Part shown: one piece after another, positions 28,284 to 40,256 of the stretch
Numbering within the stretch: the stretch's first letter is position 1
How the letters are laid out: every line of letters begins with the position of its first letter
NCBI RefSeq assembly: GCF_013705725.1
Contig: NZ_CP055481.1
Location: 3,658,001-3,722,000, forward strand
Origin: Klebsiella sp. RHBSTW-00484
Lineage (GTDB): Bacteria > Pseudomonadota > Gammaproteobacteria > Enterobacterales > Enterobacteriaceae
Length of the DNA stretch: 64,000 bases
Direction of reading: 5' to 3'
Program-made: the position numbers and the translations under genes
Notes under the pieces: model-generated
What the model saw: only the letters and a program-made list of their open reading frames with translations
What the model was told of the DNA's origin: nothing
Database searches by the model: none

Positions 28284-28324
28284 AGGGCGCGCATATTAAC
28301 TTTGTAATGTCATAGAGTCAAAGA

Positions 28325-28348
28325 AAAAGGCAGCCTCAGGTTGCCTTT
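28325..28348. other. Hairpin in the yceD-yceF divergent region
   Basis: AAGGCAGCC and GGTTGCCTT form a stem flanked by an A-run and TTTTG. In E. coli the small RNA SraB is encoded at this position, in the direction of yceD. A counterpart is possible, but conservation cannot be judged here. Confidence 0.3.
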
Positions 28349-28424
28349 TGCCAATTATTCGCACACATTGCGGCGCATAGTTTAAAATGATGCTCTGCGA
28401 AGCGCTACATGTGGATGAAAAAAT

Positions 28425-29009
28425 ATGTCTGAACTGATCCTGGCGTCAACCTCTCCATGGCGGCGAATGCTGCTGGAGAAGCTTTCAGTGCCTTTTGAAT
28501 GCGCAGCACCGGACGTTGATGAAACGCCGCTGCCAGGTGAATCGGCACGCCAGCTGGTGATGCGTCTGGCACAAGCAAAGGCCCAAGCCCTCGCCGAACG
28601 CTTTCCACACCACCTTATTATAGGTTCCGATCAGGTTTGCGTCCTGGATGGTGAAATCACTGGCAAACCACATAGCGAAGAAAACGCCCATCGTCAGCTA
28701 AAGAAAGCCAGCGGCACCATCGTGACCTTCTACACCGGTCTGGCACTGTACAATTCAACTAATGGTCATTTACAGACCGAATGCGAACCCTTTGACGTTC
28801 ATTTCCGCCGTTTAAGCGACCAGGAAATTGACAGCTATGTGCGCAAAGAAAACCCACTACAATGCGCTGGAAGTTTCAAAAGCGAAGGATTAGGCATCAC
28901 GCTTTTTGAACGTCTTGAAGGCCGCGACCCAAATGCACTGGTCGGCCTACCGTTAATCGCCTTATGCCAAATGCTCCGCCGGGAAGGATTTAACCCCTTA
29001 CTCACATAA
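28425..29009 (+). CDS. yceF: Nucleoside triphosphate pyrophosphatase YceF (Maf-like, m7GTP)
   Basis: Maf/HAM1-superfamily house-cleaning pyrophosphatase of 194 residues. The E. coli enzyme prefers 7-methyl-GTP. The signature [17 protein letters not shown] at the N-terminus (tryptophan marks the YceF subgroup), the catalytic GSDQVC region near residue 68 and [17 protein letters not shown] are seen. It is followed by a hairpin at 29022-29057. Confidence 0.96.
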
Positions 29010-29021
29010 GCAGGCGTTAAA

Positions 29022-29057
29022 ATGGGATCGGAGGTTTTAATATCCTCCCGATCCCAT
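29022..29057. terminator. Hairpin between convergent yceF and the exporter gene
   Basis: ATGGGATCGGAGG and CCTCCCGATCCCAT pair with one bulge. It lies in the 60-base gap between two convergent genes and could end both, although there is no long T-run. Confidence 0.6.
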
Positions 29058-29069
29058 AACGACCCCATT

Positions 29070-29855
29070 TTACGCAAGAGCCATCAGGCTGGTAAACAGC
29101 ATGTTGCCGCCGACAAATAACAGCACGCAATACACGATGCGCAGGAACGTCTCTTTATTAATGCGCTGCAGGAAGGCCATTCCCAGGAAGAAGCCAATCG
29201 CCGCCATAGGGAAACCGACTGTCAGTGCGCCCCCAAGATGCTCCGTCCACGCGCCATTACGATACTGGTTAAATGCGTTCCAGGTGTTAAATACCACCCA
29301 TACCATATTCATGGTATTACGGAATTTTTCTTTTTCCTTAACGGCTTCGATGGTGTAAACGGTAATCAGCGGACCACCAATAGTAAATGCACCGTGTACG
29401 ACACCACCTAAAATAAGGCAGCCATAGCGAAAACATTTTTTCACTGTCGTATCTGGCACATTTACGGCTTCTACTTTTTTAAAGATCAACGGATTGACGA
29501 TATGCTTGTAAATGTTCATTACTGCAATAATCGTGACCATTGCGCCAATACAGATTTTCGCTACATTGGGACTAATTGTATAAAATAAGTAGTTACCGAC
29601 TAATATTCCCGGAACGCACAGGGCGACTATTTTCCCTAAATCTTTCCAGGAAACATCGCGCCAGGTTCTGACCGCCAGAAAATATAAAAAAGGTAAGGTA
29701 ATCAACGTACCATAAGGTACCCCTACCGATGTTCCTAGTAAACCGTTGGTCACTGATGCCGCGATAACGGTACAGCCAAATCCGGTACATCCCTGAACAA
29801 AAAAACCGACAATTTGCATTAAACCGACAAGTATAAAATCAGTATTGAAACTCAT
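29070..29855 (-). CDS. TauE/SafE-family anion exporter (putative sulfonate exporter)
   Basis: 261-residue integral membrane protein of the TauE/SafE (DUF81) family with about eight hydrophobic segments. A glycine-rich repeat starts with QIVGFFVQGCTGFGCTVIAAS near residue 14, and a second half contains LILGGVVHGAFTIGGPLITVY. Members export sulfite, sulfoacetate or other small sulfur anions. It lies downstream of the glycyl radical enzyme on the same strand but is separated by 295 bases holding hairpins and an ERIC repeat. By context I infer export of 3-hydroxypropanesulfonate, or possibly sulfite. Confidence 0.85.
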   Translation of the reverse strand: MSFNTDFILVGLMQIVGFFVQGCTGFGCTVIAASVTNGLLGTSVGVPYGTLITLPFLYFLAVRTWRDVSWKDLGKIVALCVPGILVGNYLFYTISPNVAKICIGAMVTIIAVMNIYKHIVNPLIFKKVEAVNVPDTTVKKCFRYGCLILGGVVHGAFTIGGPLITVYTIEAVKEKEKFRNTMNMVWVVFNTWNAFNQYRNGAWTEHLGGALTVGFPMAAIGFFLGMAFLQRINKETFLRIVYCVLLFVGGNMLFTSLMALA

Positions 29856-29870
29856 GATATCCGCCCTGGA

Positions 29871-29997
29871 TATACCCTAAATAATTCGAGTTGCAGGAAG
29901 GCGGCAAGTGAGCGAATCCCCAGGAACTTACTCATGTAAGTGACTGGGGTGAACGAACGCAGCCAACGCACGTGCAACTTGAAGTATGACGGGTATA
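29871..29997. repeat. ERIC (IRU) element, 127 bp
   Basis: Ends TATACCC and GGGTATA enclose exactly 127 bases. The core GCGAATCCCCAGGAACTTAC and the segment GTAAGTGACTGGGGTGAACG match the classical ERIC1R and ERIC2 primer regions. It lies between the glycyl radical enzyme gene and the exporter gene. Confidence 0.95.
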
Positions 29998-30038
29998 TAA
30001 AGATACTCGCATTATCTCTGGCTTTTTCCCACCAAACC

Positions 30039-30105
30039 AGAGAGGTCAGGATGTGGGTCGGCCTCTCTTTTTTGTCCCGGAGATGTAAACCCCATATCTC
30101 CGGGA
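30039..30105. terminator. Two hairpins downstream of the glycyl radical enzyme gene
   Basis: AGAGAGG (30040-30046) pairs with CCTCTCT (30063-30069), which is followed by TTTTT on the plus strand. CCCGGAGAT (30077-30085) pairs with ATCTCCGGG (30097-30105). Reading leftward, the second hairpin comes 46 bases after the enzyme's stop and could limit readthrough into the exporter. Confidence 0.55.
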
Positions 30106-30150
30106 TAACAAAAAATTAATAGCCTTCCCACAACATGCTGCACGTTATTA

Positions 30151-32631
30151 TCAGAAATGAAGTTCAGTGCGCTGAATCAAATCTTTCTGTAACGGTTTGC
30201 CGAGTTCGACAAAATAAGCGCTATAACCCGCAACGCGAACCAGCATATCTTTATAATCCTCCGGCTTTTTCTGCGCGGCGCGCATGGTAGCCGAGCTCAT
30301 GATATTGAACTGAACATGCATCGCCTGCTTGGCAATATACTCATCAATAAAACTCAGCAGATTATCGCGCCCTTCGACCCCAGCCACCGCTTCTTGTGGG
30401 AATCGAAGATTCATCAGAGTACCGTTGGTTGCCAGGCTATGGTCAACTTTGGTTAATGAATTGACTAACGCTGTTGGCCCGCAGATGTCATGAGAGCCGC
30501 CGTCAGTGTGAACTGGCCCCATGTTATCGGAGATAGGCTCAAATTTTTTACGTCCATCAATAGAAGCATTTGTGTTCAGACCCATGCCGACGTTGGCATT
30601 CACGGAATAAACGCCTGGACTGAATTCTCCCCCACGCGGCGTCTTTCTACCGCTGATATGGCGGCAATAGCATTCAAACATGAATTTGAACAGATCATCC
30701 GCATAATCATCATCGTTGCCGTAGTGGCGCACCTTCGAGCTATTGACCAATGCGTACAGTTTTTCATGGCCGACCCAGTTGTCCTTAACTGCCTGCAGCA
30801 TCTCGGCACCGCTATAACGCTTCTCGTCGAACACCAACTGTTTGATGGTTGCCAGGCTGTCAGCACAGGTCGCCATACCCGCTGCCTGCGGAGCGATACC
30901 GTTGTACTTCGCGCCGCCTTCAGTCAAATCCTTACCTGAAATCATACAGTCTTCATAGAAAGCGGAGACGTAGGGAACAGGCTTTAGCTCGCGGTGTGCG
31001 TTGTCGATAATATTCAGACTACTGCACATTTGATCGGTCCAGTATTCAAACTGTTGATCGACGCTTGCCAGAACTTCATCGAAACTCTTATAGGTATCCA
31101 GGCTGCCGGTATCAGGCCCCAACTGCTCACCGGTACTCAGGCTACGGCCACCGTTGACCACCATCTCCATCATTTTTGGCGTATTCACATAAGCCGCATC
31201 ATGCCAGCCATATTCTTTACCCGCTAAATCCAGCTCGACGCAGCCAACAACGCAGTAATCTCTGGCCTCTTCGAGAGTCATTCCTTTACGCATCATGCCT
31301 TTAATAGAAGGCGCATCATTGAATAGCTTCGGATGTCCGTAACCCGCACGGATACACTCAACGGTCTTAATTTTTAGTTCATAAGGCGTATTTTCATGCA
31401 TGCGAACACAAACCCACGGGTTCATCATTCGCGTATGGGCTGAACCTTCCAGCATCAGCATCGTCAGATCGTTAGTCGCATCATTCCCCTCGCGATCGAC
31501 GCCGCCAAGAGTCAGGCTTTCACCGCCAAAACCACGACCGTTACGCACCGCAACGGTGCCTTTGTCTTTTAGCTTGGTGGGGTTATTCATCTTCACGTAC
31601 TGAACTTCGATTAACTCAAGTGCGAACTCTTTAGTCATCGTGTTGTTCTTCATATCCGCCGCGAACCACGGATAAAGCCACTGATCCATGCGGCCATAGG
31701 AAATGGAGTGCCCATTACTTTCAATTTGGATTAGCGTTGTGGCGAAATTGAACAACTGCAGCGCTTGCCAGAATGTCTGCGGTACCCCACCGGCGATCTG
31801 CTGACAGTTTAACGCCATGGTTTCGAGCTCTTGCTTTCTCTGCGGGTTTTCTTCTTTTTCAGCAGACTCTTTAGCCAATTTTGCATATCGCGCAATATAT
31901 TTTTTAGCCGCTTCAAGTTCGATAATCATCGCTGTATAGAAGTCACGCTTGTCGCCATATTCAGGATCACGCTTGCTTAACTTTTCCAATCCGGCTTGAG
32001 CATTGTCGATCAGACCGTTATAACCCACAGCCATTAAACGGGCGTAATCAATCGCCAGATGCCCTGCTCCGGCATAATGATAAAGATTGGTCTGGAATAT
32101 CTTCTCGCCAACTTCAGACCCTTTAGTCTGATCTTTTTCAAGCCGACTGTTGATCAAATCATCAACGGTTTTACCTTCCCAATATTGGCAAAGTTCAACG
32201 ATTTCCTTGCGTTCCTTATCATTGCGAATATAAAACTGATCGTTGGCACGTTCTTCAAAAGGAGAATGCAGGATCTCATTAATGATCCAGTTAACAGAGA
32301 ACTCAGGATATATCGGTGATGCTTTGGCCGGGGCAGCTATTTCACCAAGAATAAGATCTTCATCATAAATATATAACTTGGTATTCAGCAGGATGTTTTC
32401 AAACGCCCTGGCACACTTCAGCTTACGCGGTGCATCTTCATGCTTCTGATATGCTTCAGTTACCAGTCTTAAGCGTTCAACATCAATATCATAAGGCCTG
32501 TCGAGAAACGCCTGCCGCAGGCGATTGACACGGGGATATGGAGACCAGTCTTCATGATGAACTTGATAGCCCAGGCTATAGGTCTTATCAAAAGGCTGGG
32601 TCCCACATGCAGTAGTATGATTCACTTTCAT
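30151..32631 (-). CDS. hpfG: Glycyl radical enzyme, probable 2,3-dihydroxypropane-1-sulfonate dehydratase
   Basis: 826-residue PFL-like glycyl radical enzyme. The radical glycine is Gly802 in RVAGYSAYF, 25 residues from the C-terminus. The thiyl Cys464 and catalytic Glu466 lie in CVVGCVELD, the C-x-E pattern of eliminase/dehydratase members; true pyruvate formate-lyase has adjacent cysteines. Neighbours are its own activase, an iron-type alcohol dehydrogenase, an anion importer and a TauE-type exporter. This matches the K. oxytoca HpfG pathway, in which DHPS is dehydrated to 3-sulfopropionaldehyde. Alternatives are glycerol or propanediol dehydratase, or a sulfite-lyase such as HpsG. The anion transporters argue against a neutral diol, and the adjacent reductase favours dehydration. 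Substrate assignment is inferred. Confidence 0.75.
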   Translation of the reverse strand: MKVNHTTACGTQPFDKTYSLGYQVHHEDWSPYPRVNRLRQAFLDRPYDIDVERLRLVTEAYQKHEDAPRKLKCARAFENILLNTKLYIYDEDLILGEIAAPAKASPIYPEFSVNWIINEILHSPFEERANDQFYIRNDKERKEIVELCQYWEGKTVDDLINSRLEKDQTKGSEVGEKIFQTNLYHYAGAGHLAIDYARLMAVGYNGLIDNAQAGLEKLSKRDPEYGDKRDFYTAMIIELEAAKKYIARYAKLAKESAEKEENPQRKQELETMALNCQQIAGGVPQTFWQALQLFNFATTLIQIESNGHSISYGRMDQWLYPWFAADMKNNTMTKEFALELIEVQYVKMNNPTKLKDKGTVAVRNGRGFGGESLTLGGVDREGNDATNDLTMLMLEGSAHTRMMNPWVCVRMHENTPYELKIKTVECIRAGYGHPKLFNDAPSIKGMMRKGMTLEEARDYCVVGCVELDLAGKEYGWHDAAYVNTPKMMEMVVNGGRSLSTGEQLGPDTGSLDTYKSFDEVLASVDQQFEYWTDQMCSSLNIIDNAHRELKPVPYVSAFYEDCMISGKDLTEGGAKYNGIAPQAAGMATCADSLATIKQLVFDEKRYSGAEMLQAVKDNWVGHEKLYALVNSSKVRHYGNDDDYADDLFKFMFECYCRHISGRKTPRGGEFSPGVYSVNANVGMGLNTNASIDGRKKFEPISDNMGPVHTDGGSHDICGPTALVNSLTKVDHSLATNGTLMNLRFPQEAVAGVEGRDNLLSFIDEYIAKQAMHVQFNIMSSATMRAAQKKPEDYKDMLVRVAGYSAYFVELGKPLQKDLIQRTELHF

Positions 32632-32668
32632 AGAAGTTATCCCATTTAAGATTGAAATAAAATATTGA

Positions 32669-33625
32669 CTATTTTTCTTTTGTCCCCACCACGCAATGAA
32701 TGCCGCGCTGGTTAAAATATTCGGCTAGCATCTGGATATGCTTTTGAAATGACCTGCGATTAACCTTCACGTTTTTCATTTTATAAGGAAGGCCCAGCGC
32801 AGTATATTTCTCTTCACCAAGACGCATAAAGCTTAAGAGCTGTAATGTGCGGATTTTCCCACCGAGTTCATTAAGAATAAAATCGGCTGTGGCTTCTATA
32901 TTCGCCATATCATCATTCACATTTGGAATAACCGGAATACGCAAAATAATGTCACGTTTTTCTGCCGTCAACTTTATTAAATTCTTCAGAATTTTATCAT
33001 TAGATACTTTAGTATATTTTTTATGAATTCCAGGATCCATATGTTTAATATCTGAAATAATAAGGTCGGTGTACGGCAGAACATTCTGAACTTTTTTCCA
33101 TGGCACATATAACGATGACTCAAGACAAGTCTGAATTCCCTCATTCCTACATGCTTGAAACAGTTTAGCGACAAAATCACTTTGTAATAAGGGTTCGCCA
33201 CCAGAAACCGTCACCCCACCACCAGAGCGTTCATAATAGCCTTTATCTTTACGAATCTCTTCCATGCACTCTTCTACCGACATGGATTTTCCCCATAGCT
33301 TAATCGCATCAGAAGGACAGGCATTATGACAAGCCAGGCAATTTGTGCAGTCGCGGCGATCTATTGAAGTTAGTTTTCCACGAGTAAACTGTAGTACATT
33401 TTTCTGCGGGCAAATGTCTTCACAAGCAGCGCACTTTTTATAAGAAATGCATTTTGTTTTATAGACTCCCACCTGCGGGTAGGGCATAAAACTTTCAGGA
33501 TTGCTGCACCATTCACAACGTAACGGGCACCCTTTCAGGAATAACTCAGTGCGCAGACCTGGACCATCATGGATAGTGAAGCGCTGAATATTGAAAATAA
33601 TCCCTGGTGGTGGTGATTGATTCAT
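32669..33625 (-). CDS. hpfH: Glycyl radical enzyme activating enzyme (radical SAM)
   Basis: 318-residue activase that would install the glycyl radical on the adjacent enzyme. The radical SAM CxxxCxxC motif is in LKGCPLRCEWCSN near residue 30. Between it and the SAM domain proper lies an insert with two ferredoxin-type 4Fe-4S motifs (CAACEDICPQ and CTNCLACHNACP, residues about 63-105), typical of activases for GRE dehydratases and lyases. GGEPLLQ binds SAM. The start is preceded by GAGGAAG; the enzyme gene begins 37 bases downstream, so they form one operon. It is clearly more AT-rich than the surrounding core genes. Confidence 0.85.
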   Translation of the reverse strand: MNQSPPPGIIFNIQRFTIHDGPGLRTELFLKGCPLRCEWCSNPESFMPYPQVGVYKTKCISYKKCAACEDICPQKNVLQFTRGKLTSIDRRDCTNCLACHNACPSDAIKLWGKSMSVEECMEEIRKDKGYYERSGGGVTVSGGEPLLQSDFVAKLFQACRNEGIQTCLESSLYVPWKKVQNVLPYTDLIISDIKHMDPGIHKKYTKVSNDKILKNLIKLTAEKRDIILRIPVIPNVNDDMANIEATADFILNELGGKIRTLQLLSFMRLGEEKYTALGLPYKMKNVKVNRRSFQKHIQMLAEYFNQRGIHCVVGTKEK

Positions 33626-33637
33626 TCCGCACTTCCT

Positions 33638-33740
33638 CAGCGTTCATTTTAAATGAAAATGCACATAACATATCATTTACATGCATTAATATTTTTATTT
33701 TCAATACCCTATAAACTCAGGATATCTAAAATGAACGCTG
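33638..33740. repeat. 14-bp perfect inverted repeat upstream of hpfH
   Basis: CAGCGTTCATTTTA (33638-33651) is exactly repeated in inverse as TAAAATGAACGCTG (33727-33740), 75 bases apart, in the AT-rich gap before hpfH. It may be a paired regulator site or a long hairpin in the leader. Confidence 0.7.
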
Positions 33741-33769
33741 TAGAAAATCGCCCGGACTTACTATTTCAC

Positions 33770-33787
33770 ATAGGGAATCCTCCCTAT
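33770..33787 (-). promoter_or_regulatory. Candidate operator upstream of hpfHG
   Basis: ATAGGGA-ATCC-TCCCTAT is a perfect 7-bp dyad with a 4-base spacer, 145 bases upstream of hpfH. The same dyad, with similar flanks (CTATTT before, TTTTA after), recurs at 38112-38129 upstream of the importer gene. I infer binding by the LuxR-type regulator encoded next to it. Confidence 0.6.
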
Positions 33788-33805
33788 TTTAAATCTCCAG
33801 TTCGA

Positions 33806-34909
33806 CTATTTATCTTCAAACCATTTATATAATTGAAAACGACTATTAACACCGCATTTAATGTATATATTTTGTATATGTTTTTTTACAGTATGGTAAC
33901 TAATAACCAGTTCATCAGCAATTGCCTGATATGTTAACCCGTTATACATCAGCCCGGCAACTTTCTGCTCTGCCTGAGTTAGAGGTAATTTGACGCCAGA
34001 ATAATCGTTAACTTTACGGTCTTCTTTCAGAGAAATGGTGATCCAATGGTAGGTATCAATAATTCCGTTGGAATAGTTCTGATCATAAGTATAGATCTTA
34101 AAAATATAGTCTTTTATCACCCGCGTCTGGACACGATTTGTGGTTGCCCCCTCACCTTCGTTACCCAATAAAAATGGCAGCCAGTTACAAGGTTTAGTAC
34201 TGCTAATTTCTTCAGTAATTGATGGGCCAAGAATATCTTTCAAATACTCCTGTGCCATTTCATTCGAACTCATGATGTGCATAAAATCATCAGTGATTAA
34301 GTATGCTTTCTCACCGGAAGAGATGATCTCATTTTGAATGTTTGAGACAATTTTAGCCTGTTCGTGCTTCTTGAAGTTTTTGTATGAGTTGGCTACATAA
34401 ACATATATTTTATTTAACGTAGCTATTTCATTATCAGTGAAGTCGCCCTCTTGCTGATTTTTAAAAAAAGCCACCTGAATATAGGCATTGATACCAAATG
34501 CCATTGTCACGCCATAATGCTGCTGGAAATTTTCCTCGAGAAATCGCACGTAACCAGAGTGTTCATAATCGATCGTGTTAATAATATCGGTTGATTTATA
34601 TAGTCTAGGTGTGACATTAAAGTAAGTGAGTTGATCGGCCACCGCTTCCTGATGTATCACATGCCTGACAACATCATTCGCGATAAACTTACGGTATGGA
34701 TGCTCTTTACCATCAAGATGAATACCATCCCAGTTGACCCATGAAAGAAACTTCCCCTGGGTATCGAAATATGAAATTAAGATTTTTTTGAAACCAAAGT
34801 TTCGCTCGAGAGAATCCAATAAGACGCTACTAAAAAATTCCCGCGCAGATATTTGTCGTTCTGACATTTCCGAAAAAAAATTTAACTGACCAACACTTTC
34901 GTAGTTCAT
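33806..34909 (-). CDS. LuxR-type transcriptional regulator
   Basis: 367-residue regulator. The C-terminal about 60 residues form a LuxR/GerE helix-turn-helix (LTQAEQKVAGLMYNG then QAIADELVISYHTVKKHIQN). The large N-terminal part is not a recognised receiver domain; it has a GAF/PAS-like look, with the segment SSGEKAYLITDDFMHIMSSNEMAQEY around residues 193-218. It may sense the sulfonate or a metabolite. ATG 34909 was chosen because GGAGAG is correctly spaced to it; the GTG at 34915 abuts that site. It sits between the dehydrogenase gene and hpfHG on the same strand and is strongly AT-rich. Likely the local activator of both transcription units. Confidence 0.82.
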   Translation of the reverse strand: MNYESVGQLNFFSEMSERQISAREFFSSVLLDSLERNFGFKKILISYFDTQGKFLSWVNWDGIHLDGKEHPYRKFIANDVVRHVIHQEAVADQLTYFNVTPRLYKSTDIINTIDYEHSGYVRFLEENFQQHYGVTMAFGINAYIQVAFFKNQQEGDFTDNEIATLNKIYVYVANSYKNFKKHEQAKIVSNIQNEIISSGEKAYLITDDFMHIMSSNEMAQEYLKDILGPSITEEISSTKPCNWLPFLLGNEGEGATTNRVQTRVIKDYIFKIYTYDQNYSNGIIDTYHWITISLKEDRKVNDYSGVKLPLTQAEQKVAGLMYNGLTYQAIADELVISYHTVKKHIQNIYIKCGVNSRFQLYKWFEDK

Positions 34910-35011
34910 GGTCACTCTCCATTACTTTTATAAATCCGGGGGTCGATACTCTGACCTATTACATCCGTTTTTAACAAAATATGGTTTTTCTCGCAATTCA
35001 TTTCCATAAGA

Positions 35012-35053
35012 AAAAGCTGAACATTGAATTTAGATCACAATGGCTCAGCTTTT
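35012..35053 (-). terminator. Hairpin after the alcohol dehydrogenase gene
   Basis: On the minus strand AAAAGCTGA pairs with TCAGCTTTT, with an inner CATTG/CAATG pair, followed by TTCTTATGG. It lies about 55 bases after the dehydrogenase stop and would separate it from the regulator gene. Confidence 0.6.
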
Positions 35054-35105
35054 ATCACAACCTGGAGAATTTAATTTAAAAAATCATTAAAGTTTTAGAA
35101 CCCTG

Positions 35106-36257
35106 TCATAACGCCTTTTCGTAAAGTGCAATAATATCCTTTAATGTCGACTGCCGTGGATTCACCAGAATATTACCGCTTTTCATAGCATCTTTTGCCA
35201 TGTCAGGGATCATCTCAGCCTTAACACCAACAGCAGACAGTGAGTCAGGGATTCCACAATCGACATTAAGTTTTTTGATTTCCTCAACAAGCATCTGCGG
35301 CTTAAACCCATTTAATACGCCATTACCTTCACGGATATAATTATAAATCACCTCATAGCGTCCACAATCGGCAAGCGCATTATACTCAATCACTGTTGGC
35401 AGAAGGATTGCGTTCGCGACACCATGGGGCACATGGAAAAAAGCGCTTACCGGATGGCTCATCGCATGCACATTACCCAATCTGGCCCACGCGAAGGCGA
35501 TACCGGCAAAATTACTTCCCAGCATCATGTCACATGCTGCTGCCTCATCTTTTCTATTCGCAATAAACCGACGCAGGCTACCACCAATTAATTCCATCGC
35601 TTTTTCTGCCATGGCATCAGAAAACGGAGAGGCGCTGGTGGATAGATAGGCTTCTAAGGCATGAATCAGCGCATCAATACCGCATGCAGCAGCAATATGT
35701 GATGGTGCTGTCATTATCAATTCGGGGTCCAAAAGTGCATATTTGGGCAGAATCTCATAACTGATAACGGAGAGTTTATAGTTCCTGGCTTCATCCGTAA
35801 TGACTGACGAAGCCGTGACCTCACTCCCCGTTCCCGCCGTGGTCGGGATCGCGATCATCGGAACAATCGGTCCAGGTACTTTATTGCTCCCTTCGTAGTC
35901 AGTGATACTTCCACCGTAATTAACTAATACTCCCACTGCTTTCGCAACATCTATCGAACTGCCTCCGCCGAGCGCCACGATACTCGTTGCTCCACATTTC
36001 TTGTATACCGCAGTTGCTTCATTTACGACGTCTACAGTCGGATTCGGAATCACTCCCAACCAGGTGGTATGATGAATTCCCGCTGAAGCAATAATATCTT
36101 CTATCTTTTTTACTACCCCAAGACCTTCGAGACCGGGGTCGGAAATCAAGAGCACATTTTCAGAATGATTTTCCTTTAAGATTTGCGGCAGTTTATTTAG
36201 GCAGCCGATACCAAACTCAATGTTTTGCGGTATTTTAAAGTTAAAGCCTTTCATCAT
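35106..36257 (-). CDS. hpfD: Iron-type alcohol dehydrogenase, probable 3-sulfopropionaldehyde reductase
   Basis: 383-residue group III (Fe-ADH/DhaT-like) dehydrogenase. The NAD-binding GGGSSIDVAKAVG lies near residue 97. Metal ligands are in CGIDALIHALEAYLS (Asp and His near 195-200) and LGNVHAMSHPVSAFFHVPHG (His near 263 and 277). In the proposed pathway it reduces 3-sulfopropionaldehyde to 3-hydroxypropanesulfonate with NADH, regenerating NAD during fermentation. Family alternatives are 1,3-propanediol or lactaldehyde dehydrogenases. It follows the importer gene by 84 bases on the same strand, with GAAGGGAAG as ribosome site. Confidence 0.78.
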   Translation of the reverse strand: MMKGFNFKIPQNIEFGIGCLNKLPQILKENHSENVLLISDPGLEGLGVVKKIEDIIASAGIHHTTWLGVIPNPTVDVVNEATAVYKKCGATSIVALGGGSSIDVAKAVGVLVNYGGSITDYEGSNKVPGPIVPMIAIPTTAGTGSEVTASSVITDEARNYKLSVISYEILPKYALLDPELIMTAPSHIAAACGIDALIHALEAYLSTSASPFSDAMAEKAMELIGGSLRRFIANRKDEAAACDMMLGSNFAGIAFAWARLGNVHAMSHPVSAFFHVPHGVANAILLPTVIEYNALADCGRYEVIYNYIREGNGVLNGFKPQMLVEEIKKLNVDCGIPDSLSAVGVKAEMIPDMAKDAMKSGNILVNPRQSTLKDIIALYEKAL

Positions 36258-36341
36258 CTTCCCTTCTATTTTCAGTAATTAAAAGACATGAATACCTCTT
36301 CTTCCCCTGCCCTAAAAATTATAAATTTGGCCTGGGCGTAC

Positions 36342-37772
36342 TTATTTCATAAAATCTGAGAGTTGGCTGAACGTAGGCCAAAATTTCAAGCATGTATAAC
36401 CGACAATCACCACGAATATGATATGGATGAGAGCCATCAGGCTTCCTCCTTTGAACATAGCCCGGGCATCCAGACCATAGGCTACAGGGATTGCCCGAAC
36501 GCTGATGGGCAGCATAAATTCTGCGTTGAAGGCCATCACGGTAATAAACCAGTAGGGAATAGGATTCAAACCAAGCTTGGTGGTAAATCCAAGGACAATA
36601 GGCAGTACGACAGCGGCTGAGGCAGTTGAGTTTGTTGATTCAGAAATGATGCGGGCCAGAACCACAAATACAATAATGGTAAGCAGTCCACCATCGAGCG
36701 ATAGTTGTGAGATAAGACTGGCGATTCCAACGCTTGCACCAGAGTCATTCACCAATTTTCCTAACGCTAAACCACCGCCAAAGAGAATAAGCATTCCCCA
36801 CATAGTCTCTTGTTGCGCCATCTCCCAGGTCAGCATCGGTCCTTTTTTGACCGTAGTTATCACAAAGCACAGGCAACCAAGAATCAGATATAAATGAGCG
36901 GGAGACAGTGCCGGAAAAATAGGTGCATACAGGGGACGCGCAAAAGCGCCAATCAGGCCTAAAATGAACAGCGAAGCGCAGGCTTTCTCATCACGCGTCA
37001 TCGGACCCAGTTCGCGGTAATTCTTTTCAAAGTACTCGCGCGTTCCATTTAGCATTTTAATTTTCATCGGCATCAGCAGCATACAGGCAAGGCTGACAAT
37101 CGAAATAATGATGTAAAACGGTGCCATACGAATGAGCCAGTCAACGTACATAAACTCGTGACCAATACGCTCTTCAAGAATTGAGATAGCCGCAAGGTTC
37201 ATCGCCCCCCCCAGAGGACTCCCTACACCACCAATACCAACCCCCCAGCCAATCGCCAACAGGATTGGAACCGCTGGTTTACATGAAGGTATATCGTCAT
37301 AACCTGACGCTGCCAGCATGGCGATAGCAATAGGCGTAAACAATGCGCAAACCATCACATTCGGGAGAATGGTTGAAGCTACGATGCTGGCAAGCAACCA
37401 GACCGTAATCTGCGACTTCATTGATGGGCCGATAAGAGAAAGAACTTTTAAAGCAACCCGGCGATCTAAACCAATCGAAGCCCAGGGGATGCACAGCAGT
37501 CCCGAACCAAAAATAAGGATGATGCTATCGGACCAATACTGGGCTGTAATGCTCCCCATCGGCACAATATTAAAGAGCGCGTTGATAATAATTGGCAGGA
37601 GGCTGGTTACGGCAACGTGCACCGGGCGTGTAACCCACCAAAAGATCATCCACAGCAAGGTACCGACAGCCTGTGCGCCTGGGGTTGTCAGGCTATGTGA
37701 AAAAAGCAGGATAGCCACAATAAAAATGATAGGGCCGCTTAAGAGATATACCAAGCGTCGTGAGTTATTCAT
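36342..37772 (-). CDS. DASS-family sodium/anion symporter, probable sulfonate importer
   Basis: 476-residue transporter of the divalent anion:sodium symporter family with about eleven membrane segments. The SNT-type substrate/sodium motif is seen as SESTNSTASAAVVLPIV near residue 390. A first motif with VGGVGSPLGGAMN lies near 190. Family members carry dicarboxylates, sulfate or tartrate. As the first gene of the island it most likely brings in the anionic substrate (inferred DHPS). Its 5' region carries the second copy of the island's palindrome. Confidence 0.85.
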   Translation of the reverse strand: MNNSRRLVYLLSGPIIFIVAILLFSHSLTTPGAQAVGTLLWMIFWWVTRPVHVAVTSLLPIIINALFNIVPMGSITAQYWSDSIILIFGSGLLCIPWASIGLDRRVALKVLSLIGPSMKSQITVWLLASIVASTILPNVMVCALFTPIAIAMLAASGYDDIPSCKPAVPILLAIGWGVGIGGVGSPLGGAMNLAAISILEERIGHEFMYVDWLIRMAPFYIIISIVSLACMLLMPMKIKMLNGTREYFEKNYRELGPMTRDEKACASLFILGLIGAFARPLYAPIFPALSPAHLYLILGCLCFVITTVKKGPMLTWEMAQQETMWGMLILFGGGLALGKLVNDSGASVGIASLISQLSLDGGLLTIIVFVVLARIISESTNSTASAAVVLPIVLGFTTKLGLNPIPYWFITVMAFNAEFMLPISVRAIPVAYGLDARAMFKGGSLMALIHIIFVVIVGYTCLKFWPTFSQLSDFMK

Positions 37773-38353
37773 AGCATATCCCCAGCGTCAATTCTTTCAG
37801 TTGTAGGCCAATAGATGCACATGTGTTTAAAAAACGTAATTATATAGATACGAAAAATCGCAACCTCATATCAATAAAAGTAAATTTATTCTTTTCTACG
37901 AAGTGCATCACATTTAGCAAAAACGATTCAGTTATTTTTTTAAAAAAAAAGCCCAACCAATGTCACCACTGTATTTAAAATGTATCGACATTGTTGAGGA
38001 GTATATGACACACAGCTATATCGATTAACATAAAAAATTAATTAATCCTTATATATCAAAACCATACCAAACATTAATAATCAAAAAAAGCAGCTATCCT
38101 TACTATTTTCTATAGGGAGAACTCCCTATTTTATAAAGATCATGCGCTATGTCTCTTATTACTGAGTGAAATCCAAAATGAAGTAACGCCTTCTTTATCA
38201 GTAATACAAATAAATTGTGAGATATTTTGTTGTGTATTTTTTATATATAGAATAAATAATTGTTGCATGCATTGATTAAATGTCATGAGACAAGCTGCGA
38301 AAGGTCAGTTAATTCTCAGCAGTTAGCCCGATAAGCGTTTTACTGGTCAGTAG
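37773..38353. promoter_or_regulatory. Long AT-rich leader/promoter region of the importer operon
   Basis: Very AT-rich, non-coding. It contains the operator-like dyad at 38112-38129. A 7-codon ORF on the plus strand (38012-38035 area, after GAGGAG) is too short to support. The half-site AAATGTGA, read leftward near 37907-37918, resembles half a CRP site, but the partner half is poor. Confidence 0.5.
38112..38129 (-). promoter_or_regulatory. Candidate operator upstream of the DASS importer gene
   Basis: ATAGGGA-GAAC-TCCCTAT is the second copy of the dyad at 33770-33787, with the same spacing and similar flanking bases. It lies 340 bases upstream of the importer start. Confidence 0.6.
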
Positions 38354-38515
38354 CTATTTAATCCTGGACGCTCGCTGGCAGGTGAAGTGGCTTATGGAGA
38401 TTTGCGTACCGTCGATTTTCTCAGCAGCTTAAAAAGGGTCAACGACGCCTTCGCCAAAGTCCATAATGTATGGGCATCGCAAAATGCACTGGGCAAACTG
38501 GAAACGAAGACGTGA
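38354..38515 (+). pseudogene. Possible 3' remnant of an unknown gene
   Basis: A 53-codon open stretch without a usable start reads LFNPGRSLAGEVAYGDLR and continues to a TGA at 38513. Its codon use is like that of core genes and unlike the AT-rich DNA just before it. A terminator-like hairpin overlaps the stop, as after a real gene. An in-frame TAG precedes it. I cannot identify the family; it could be the tail of a gene lost when the island inserted. Confidence 0.3.
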
Positions 38516-38537
38516 CCAGAACTTGGCCACGTTTTTT
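38511..38537 (+). terminator. Terminator-like hairpin after the possible remnant
   Basis: CGTGACCA and TGGCCACG pair with one mismatch around GAACT and are followed by TTTTTT. Confidence 0.6.
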
Positions 38538-38578
38538 ATGAAGTGCAACAGGACGAAGTTTTCCCATAGCTTAATAAG

Positions 38579-38597
38579 TGGCTCAAACACTGAGCCA
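38579..38597 (-). terminator. Hairpin after rluC
   Basis: TGGCTCA and TGAGCCA form a 7-bp stem 9 bases beyond the rluC stop on the minus strand; the T-run is weak. Confidence 0.5.
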
Positions 38598-38605
38598 GAT
38601 ACGAA

Positions 38606-39559
38606 TTACTTTGCGTTACGCAAAACCTGTAGGCAGCGCTTAAGCTGATTATCTAAAGGCGCTTCGACACGCATAACTTCCCCGGTTCCCGGATGCGTAA
38701 ATTTCAGCGATGCGGCATGCAGGAACAGACGGTTAAGGCCGGTTCCTGCCAGTTGCTTGTCGAATTCACGGTCGCCGTAACGATCGTCAAAAGCTATCGG
38801 ATGACCGGCATATTGTGTATGCACACGAATCTGATGGGTACGACCGGTTACCGGACTACAGCGCACTAGCGTCGCATGGGTATAACGTTCTTCCACCTTA
38901 AAACGGGTCTCTGAAGGTTTGCCCTCCTGATTGACCCGAACAATACGCTCGCCACTTTGCAGGATATTTTTCAGCAGAGGAGCCTGCACCACTTTAGTAT
39001 GCGACTGCCACTGTCCGCGCACCAGGGCCAGATAATCTTTCTGCATTCCTTTATCGCGCAGTTGCTCATGCAGCGAACGCAGCGCTGAACGCTTTTTCGC
39101 AACCAGCAAAACGCCTGACGTATCTCGATCGAGACGATGAACCAGTTCCAGGAAGCGAGCCTCCGGGCGCAACGCACGCAGACCTTCGATCACGCCAAAG
39201 CTCAGACCGCTACCGCCATGCACCGCTGTACCTGAAGGCTTATTGAGCACCAGAATGTGATCGTCTTCATAGAGAATGACGTCCGCCAGCGCGGCCACTT
39301 TTTGCAGATGCGGAGATACTGCTTCTTCTTCCCTTTCCGCCACCCGCACCGGCGGGATACGTACTTCGTCACCGGCTTCCAGTTTGTATTCCGGCTTAAC
39401 ACGTTTTTTGTTCACCCGCACCTCGCCTTTACGCAAGATGCGATAAATCATGCTCTTCGGTACGCCTTTGAGTTGCGTACGCAAAAAGTTGTCGATACGT
39501 TGCCCTGCGTCATCATCCGCAATGGCAACCATTTTTACGCTTGGGGTCTCAGTTTTCAT
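38606..39559 (-). CDS. rluC: 23S rRNA pseudouridine(955/2504/2580) synthase
   Basis: 317-residue RluA-family synthase. An N-terminal S4 RNA-binding domain (IDNFLRTQLKGVPKSMIYRILRKGEVRVN) is followed by the catalytic domain, whose aspartate is in VHRLDRDTSGVLLVA (near residue 144). It modifies three uridines near the peptidyl transferase centre. ATG 39559 gives the E. coli start (MKTETPSVKMV); the ATG at 39643 would add 28 unrelated residues. Confidence 0.96.
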   Translation of the reverse strand: MKTETPSVKMVAIADDDAGQRIDNFLRTQLKGVPKSMIYRILRKGEVRVNKKRVKPEYKLEAGDEVRIPPVRVAEREEEAVSPHLQKVAALADVILYEDDHILVLNKPSGTAVHGGSGLSFGVIEGLRALRPEARFLELVHRLDRDTSGVLLVAKKRSALRSLHEQLRDKGMQKDYLALVRGQWQSHTKVVQAPLLKNILQSGERIVRVNQEGKPSETRFKVEERYTHATLVRCSPVTGRTHQIRVHTQYAGHPIAFDDRYGDREFDKQLAGTGLNRLFLHAASLKFTHPGTGEVMRVEAPLDNQLKRCLQVLRNAK

Positions 39560-40256
39560 GGTGCGCGATTCTAAATAGCCCGACGCATTAGCGCCACTCA
39601 TTTTTATATGCTTATATTTATCATTATCTGGATTGCATCGCATGCTTCATCGTCGTTTTGTTTGTTATTAGAACAATCTGTATACGCTGGTGAAGAAACT
39701 GTGAGTAACCGGATGATAAAAGGTAAAAGTCAACTTGCTATAACAAGCTTAGCAATGGAATAATGATGCAGTTTTCCGTGCTGAATCTTGTTAGAACAAG
39801 AAATTAGCGGAATGACCAATTTTGTCTGACCGATCATCCACGCAGCAATGGCGTAAGACGTATTGATCTTTCAGACAGTTAGCGGGCTGCGGGTTGCAGT
39901 CCTTACCGGTACAGGCTCTATGGATTTTACGTCGCAGGAAGGCGTCAACTCCGGGATTCCCGGGAGCTCATCTGAGTCAAATGATTGAGATGAGCAGGTT
40001 AAGCCAACACGCCTGCAACGTGAAAAACGATGGGTATAAATGGAATCTTCTCTGGTGATACATCCCAGGCAGTTCCCCTGATAATTGCACTGTGTTTCCG
40101 TTTGAAATACAGGCGACCGACACTCTGCGCCTCTTAAGCGCGCGACAACCGTGAGGTTGGCGACGTGAACCAGACTCGAGGCCATCGGTTTCCCCCGGTA
40201 AGGCGTTACTCTGCCCGTAGCTTAGTCGTCAATGTAAGAATAATGAGTAAGTTACG
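39560..40256 (+). promoter_or_regulatory. rne promoter and long autoregulatory leader
   Basis: 697 non-coding bases between rluC and rne. In E. coli rne has a 361-base leader whose hairpins sense RNase E and control its own mRNA decay. Segments resembling that leader are recognisable here: about 39880-39910 (GCGGGCTGCGGGTTGCAG) and about 40140-40256 (CGTGAGGTTGGCGACG, GAGGCCATCGGTTT, AGCTTAGTCGTCAATG). Between them lies an ERIC-like repeat at 39912-40038. Confidence 0.7.
39912..40038. repeat. Diverged ERIC-like element inside the rne leader
   Basis: It aligns over 127 bases with the clear ERIC copy at 29871-29997. GCAGGAAGGCG lies at the same offset, then GATTCCCGGGAGCTCA (ERIC AATCCCCAGGAGCTTA), and the right end is GCCAACACGCCTGCAACGTG...GATGGGTATA. 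Length and end spacing fit an ERIC element; the middle has diverged. Confidence 0.7.

Follow-up and report, generated by a model that had tools for sequence, protein, structure and literature searches.

What is a glycyl radical operon doing between rluC and yceF in a Klebsiella, where did it come from, and what controls it? The locus lies in a 64,000-nucleotide stretch of the genome of Klebsiella sp. RHBSTW-00484 (contig NZ_CP055481.1, positions 3,658,001 to 3,722,000), referred to here as the window. Six genes, all on the minus strand, occupy window positions 29070-37772, exactly as an earlier note made from the sequence alone had placed them; they encode a DASS-family transporter, an iron-type alcohol dehydrogenase (Fe-ADH), a LuxR-type regulator, a radical-SAM activase (HpfH), a glycyl radical enzyme (HpfG), and a TauE/SafE-family protein, and the family of each open reading frame (ORF) is supported by Pfam. 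Judged from sequence, the island is very probably an acquired HpfGHD-type operon for the fermentation of 2,3-dihydroxypropane-1-sulfonate (DHPS), which would serve as an NADH sink and would have brought its own regulator and a palindromic operator. The operon is real, was correctly read, and is of a kind already characterized. The present analysis adds a proposed regulator-operator pair and an account of what happened at the insertion site; it also confirms the operon in Klebsiella, where it occupies a chromosomal site of variable content, and links it to a sulfoglycolytic (sulfo-EMP, sulfo-Embden-Meyerhof-Parnas) cluster of the same genome.

Fermentation of DHPS to 3-hydroxypropanesulfonate (3-HPS) by HpfGHD(E) was reportedly described by Liu et al. 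in 2020 for Klebsiella oxytoca and Hungatella hathewayi. The island shares with that system HpfG, HpfH, the Fe-ADH, and an exporter-type gene, and Klebsiella is a described host. The pathway chemistry is thus already known, since the activity of HpfG and HpfH has been published for K. oxytoca (PMC11489063); HpfD has been described in H. hathewayi and Enterococcus gilvus (PMC11489063, PMC12890257). In contrast, neither a regulator nor an operator is mentioned in the available portions of these two papers. Within the openly licensed PMC literature, no paper was found that treats HpfG together with LuxR; among the matches listed, those for the name "HpfR" were all unrelated by title, the term "LuxR family" combined with sulfoglycolysis or DHPS led to LuxR only in a tobacco leaf metagenome paper, and no title retrieved for sulfoquinovose, operator, regulator, or glycyl radical concerned this regulator.

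The LuxR-type protein, for which the name HpfR is proposed, is the part of the system that the earlier reading missed: a cross-phylum component with a conserved operator candidate. Its helix-turn-helix (HTH) domain is the sole Pfam match above cut-off. In a structure model built from 38 orthologues (mean predicted local distance difference test, pLDDT, 86), a GAF-like domain and a PAS-like region can be made out besides the LuxR HTH, where the names GAF and PAS are our reading of fold matches to the model. Combining GAF, PAS, and HTH in a single chain that goes with a glycyl radical enzyme operon, the regulator differs from the LuxR-type proteins VqsR (ligand-binding domain) and VqmA (PAS-HTH), to which it is 15% and 18% identical, respectively. 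A K. huaxiensis protein matches it at 98% identity, and orthologues adjoin hpfHG in Bacillota; no regulator was seen in the hpf loci of the Vibrio group. HpfR is proposed to be the operon's own regulator and a part of the hpf system across phyla.

Two near-identical palindromic sites with the core ATAGGGA-N4-TCCCTAT lie in the island, one before hpfH and one before the transporter gene. Eighty hpf loci were examined for a site with at most three mismatches within 300 bp upstream of hpfH; seven lack a usable hpfH ORF, leaving 73 scored, from which one more (L073) was dropped with hpfH at a contig edge. A conserved operator candidate at the target promoter, as would be looked for with a LuxR-type regulator of a single operon, is present in 36 of the 41 regulator-bearing loci and in 1 of the 31 others (35/40 versus 2/32 if L013, whose regulator lies at a contig end, is not counted as having one; Fisher values on this test ignore relatedness). 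Two of the loci without a usable hpfH ORF (L030, L035) nevertheless carry the palindrome. The Vibrio group can be left out of the comparison, because hpfH stands behind hpfG in 11 of its 15 scored loci and the stretch before hpfH is therefore not the promoter; the count without the regulator then becomes 1 of 16, and a scan of those Vibrio-group loci over their whole length gave no match at one mismatch or fewer. Some of the loci scored as lacking the regulator (L041, L062, L068) have little upstream DNA, so that absence of the regulator there is unsure.

Both copies of the palindrome, the one ahead of hpfH and the one ahead of the transporter gene, would probably be bound by HpfR, and the layout of the promoter bears on what binding would do. 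Alignment of 40 sites reveals a common ATAG about 23 bp downstream and a conserved TG and T--A-T at +60 to +68. These extended -10-like positions put the centre of the palindrome near -66 (in the numbering they imply), upstream of the promoter, which fits an activator. HpfR might instead be a repressor released by its ligand, repression being common among sensor regulators; we regard this as rather unlikely. In the preferred scheme, HpfR would activate from upstream of the extended -10 promoter in response to a ligand or to redox state, forming with its site a dedicated and probably activating regulator-operator pair.

The palindrome might instead serve another regulator, or might terminate transcription of the regulator gene: the copy before hpfH is 19 bp past the regulator stop codon, and its RNA could fold into a 7-bp stem with a 4-base loop. 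It is not followed by a T run, however, and a second copy precedes the transporter gene. A terminator is further disfavored because the palindrome stays at hpfH in five loci (L012, L028, L054, L057, L064) in which the regulator gene is 4-6 kb distant. As for another regulator, the sole regulator-less locus with a site (L042) comes from the same metagenome-assembled genome as a regulator-bearing locus (L079). Either use of the palindrome is considered unlikely. We hold it reasonably probable that HpfR represents an undescribed GAF-PAS-LuxR family controlling hpf through the 18-bp palindrome, and that the regulator passed together with its operator and promoter layout, as a single working unit, from Gram-positive fermenters to Enterobacteriaceae, DHPS fermentation arriving under control. 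Its own control protein and the probable DNA site of that protein seem to accompany the kit as it moves between distant bacteria. The pair offers a testable control point, its sequence could tag hpf operons that are under regulation, and the promoter may be one that has kept its function across phyla.

The identity of the enzyme that is placed under this control is indicated by model scores. The 826-residue protein passes the NCBIfam equivalog for Klebsiella HpfG (NF048009) with 1733 bits against a cut-off of 1000, and the 318-residue activase passes that for HpfH (NF048008) with 581 against 500, bearing out the HpfG/HpfH-type route that had been read from the letters. HpfG has GCVE at residues 463-466 (Cys464) and Gly802 in the motif RVAGYSAYF, both as first described; HpfH has the radical-SAM cysteine motif CPLRCEWC at residue 33. 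Cys464, Glu466, Asp478, His308, Ser309, His191, and Gly802 of HpfG are each invariant in 77 of 77 family sequences; the diol-site residues among these are assigned from the site of glycerol dehydratase. The most likely identity is an HpfG/HpfH-type DHPS dehydratase system, and from the two equivalog scores set against that of the sulfolyase HpsG it follows that DHPS is most likely dehydrated and then reduced to 3-HPS.

The earlier note had also considered that the enzyme might group with neutral diol dehydratases or with C-S lyases; by model scores it groups with neither. A glycerol or 1,2-propanediol dehydratase, with transporters that carry something else, would agree with the closest solved structures, namely those of glycerol dehydratase at 615 bits, of a glycyl radical protein at 574 bits, and of diol dehydratase, and with the retention of diol-site residues; this reading was rejected on the model scores, the HpfG equivalog cut-off being exceeded by 733 bits, and the genes in company encode sulfonate-type carriers (TauE, DASS), so that it is very improbable. 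A C-S lyase of the HpsG or IslA type releasing sulfite is hardly credible and was rejected, for although superfamily and substrate class are shared and both HpsG- and IslA-type models match at lower score, the HpsG model (NF048011) is failed at 489 bits (cut-off 1000) against 1733 for HpfG, and the operon is without a sulfite-using enzyme; HpsG (DHPS sulfolyase) and IslA (isethionate sulfolyase) are likewise glycyl radical enzymes on sulfonates, but cleave the C-S bond.

With HpfG as a DHPS dehydratase, the six genes suggest the following sequence of events, in which the reaction and the 3-HPS product are carried over from published relatives. HpfH would install the glycyl radical on Gly802; HpfG would dehydrate DHPS to 3-sulfopropionaldehyde, leaving the C-S bond intact; the Fe-ADH, as HpfD, would reduce the aldehyde with NADH to 3-HPS; and the TauE protein would probably export the product, the net effect being an anaerobic NADH sink. 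DHPS would probably be taken up by the DASS carrier. In this way the six-gene kit probably lets the cell discard electrons anaerobically onto a sulfonate that derives from plants. As had been stated before, none of the six island proteins is a sulfite reductase, an aldehyde dehydrogenase, or a microcompartment protein in NCBIfam or Pfam. The bifurcated HpfX/HpfYZ pathway of E. gilvus, so far as the available portion of its description goes, has HpfG, HpfH, HpfD, and a TauE gene in common with the island (PMC11489063); it differs in that the six proteins, to which this search was confined, include no aldehyde dehydrogenase or CoA ligase.

A second supply of DHPS is probable. The same genome carries a sulfo-EMP cluster, which by its sequence would make DHPS from sulfoquinovose inside the cell: its YihT is 90% identical to that of E. 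coli, the surrounding ORFs follow the E. coli yih order, YihU (585 bits, cut-off 348) and YihQ (1218 bits, cut-off 553) pass their models, and YihV, YihS, and CsqR match by broader families only (the scan covered the yih cluster apart from YihR). The island could therefore extend sulfoglycolysis as well as scavenge external DHPS. The earlier description of the island as self-contained needs qualification, because the same genome holds the DHPS-making cluster. Within the genus, YihT occurs in 3 of 3 carriers and in 1 of 17 other genomes (69% identity in that one; Fisher 0.0035, relatedness ignored); in the family sample it occurs in 65 of 392 genomes, including the 4 carriers (Fisher 0.0007, relatedness ignored).

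The operator reading and the gene assignments have points against them as well as for them. Five of the 41 regulator loci have no site within 300 bp (L033, L037, L039, L071, L087), though L033 has a two-mismatch site further upstream. At one mismatch or fewer the host genome has two palindrome matches, both inside the island, and other carriers have 2 (G394), 2 (G405), 3 (G330), 2 (G362), and 0 (G183); a mirrored control pattern turns up about equally often over whole genomes (once in the host genome and, for the same carriers in order, 2, 1, 0, 4, and 0 times; 3 times in G408). Scarcity of the palindrome alone consequently proves nothing, and it is position that does. In favor of the reading, all of eight Bacillota genomes, chosen among loci with the site, have it at hpf, where it is the sole exact copy in seven and a one-mismatch copy in the eighth; three of them have an additional one-mismatch copy elsewhere (mirrored controls 0-3). 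The HpfD and exporter assignments stand on kinship and position. The Fe-ADH is 81% identical to the alcohol dehydrogenase beside hpfG in H. hathewayi (L016), a species in which HpfD was described and where this gene may be the one assayed, and no NCBIfam equivalog scores above cut-off; the DASS transporter reaches 127 bits against TIGR00785, below its cut-off of 198.6, and has relatives at 55-66% identity in some Bacillota hpf loci. Finally, of the six hpf carrier genomes, all of which have YihT, four have it at 89-90% identity to the E. coli protein and two (G362, G183) at only 67%.

How the operon came to this place is indicated by its distribution. HpfG at 96% identity or more is found in 3 of 20 Klebsiella genomes (next match 38%), and the island is missing from the other 17, in all of which rluC neighbors yceF across a gap of 43-1410 bp. 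In E. coli, among the matches listed, rluC and yceF span 1.9 kb versus 11.3 kb in the window, and none of 5426 E. coli genomes has a place covering 80% of window positions 28300-39700. In a family sample of 392 genomes, four have a protein above the HpfG cut-off. Among named genomes, K. spallanzanii has the nearest hpfG (96%); this species, Escherichia sp. MOD1-EC7003, and Superficieibacter electus have the identical gene order at the same site, which is thus shared by three genera of Enterobacteriaceae. On plasmids no copy of the island was found: 17 records matched, each over at most 1% of the query and within a 129-bp repeat.

In Klebsiella the content of the yceF-rluC gap varies: it can be empty, or it can hold a gene for an alpha/beta-hydrolase or for a transporter-like protein, or the hpf island. 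Four of the 17 genomes (L144, L146, L148, L150) have an intact 381-residue gene in the gap, identified in L146 as an alpha/beta-hydrolase by Pfam, and two (L156, L160) have a transporter-like gene, of MFS type in L160. A broken piece of the hydrolase gene adjoins rluC in the window, and K. spallanzanii retains a piece too; the rluC-side edge of the island falls in the remains of this gene. In G183, from the genus that holds S. electus, a second enterobacterial hpf cluster lies at another place (L139, 2669-12650), with IclR, DASS, an acylating-type aldehyde dehydrogenase, alcohol dehydrogenase, HpfH, HpfG (one in-frame stop), and TauE; it has neither this LuxR-type regulator nor the palindrome.

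Composition (G+C of 43.4% for 29010-38605 versus 51.5% for the window), empty sites, and protein kinship support foreign acquisition by an ancestor of this Klebsiella, so the earlier suggestion of an AT-rich, acquired locus holds. The regulator gene has a G+C content of 36.9%, and three of four intergenic parts have 32-36%. HpfG is 68-85% identical to Bacillota sequences and 72-75% to those of the Vibrio group, and in both the HpfG and the regulator trees the Enterobacteriaceae form one supported clade amid mainly Bacillota sequences; a Bacillota source is likely. The HpfG tree has 77 sequences, those of the window and L135 plus 75 from the 80 loci (L025, L031, L039, L082, and L083 are not in it because of their length or because an ORF is missing). 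Its shape suggests separate entries of hpfG into Pseudomonadota for the Enterobacteriaceae and the Vibrio group; two entries are not claimed, because a tree joining both groups is not rejected (approximately unbiased test, p-AU 0.096; L073, L079, and four outgroups additionally left out). Measured against L010 and L011, divergence at fourfold sites ranges over 0.91-2.35 among the six hpf genes and over 0.24-1.45 among rluC, yceF, yceD, and plsX, and thus gives no sign of recent transfer among the Enterobacteriaceae genera, in a comparison (without Rne) that codon bias makes weak.

Table 1. Features of the hpf island and its edges, in window coordinates.
Feature	Position	Strand	Remarks
DASS-family transporter, putative DHPS carrier	36342..37772	-	476 aa; PF00939/PF03600
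Fe-type alcohol dehydrogenase, putative 3-sulfopropionaldehyde reductase HpfD	35106..36257	-	383 aa; PF00465/PF25137
GAF-PAS-LuxR regulator, HpfR (name proposed here)	33806..34915	-	369 aa, GTG start; PF00196
HpfH, predicted radical-SAM activase of HpfG	32669..33625	-	318 aa; NF048008
HpfG, predicted glycyl radical DHPS dehydratase	30151..32631	-	826 aa; Cys464, Gly802; NF048009
TauE/SafE-family protein, putative 3-HPS exporter	29070..29855	-	261 aa; PF01925; after hpfG in many relatives
Palindrome ATAGGGAGGATTCCCTAT, operator candidate	33770..33787	-	144 bp before hpfH
Palindrome ATAGGGAGTTCTCCCTAT, operator candidate	38112..38129	-	339 bp before DASS gene
Decayed alpha/beta-hydrolase gene fragment	38357..38587	+	rluC-side edge of island
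ERIC-like repeat, 129 bp	29870..29998	not assigned	between hpfG and tauE

The flanking genes, assigned by product and by E. coli matches, are rluC (38606-39643) and yceF (28425-29009). The 129-bp ERIC-like (enterobacterial repetitive intergenic consensus) repeat is missing between hpfG and tauE in all eight carrier stretches compared (L009, L010, L011, L135-L139), and therefore looks like a late insertion within the operon. Rfam at gathering scores gave no match in window positions 28900-38700. Between the convergent yceF and tauE, at 29022-29057, is an imperfect inverted repeat with arms of about 13 bp each, possibly a two-way terminator. The host genome encodes six glycyl radical enzymes, and one of these sits in a 1194-residue frame that is presumably of CutC type by its length.

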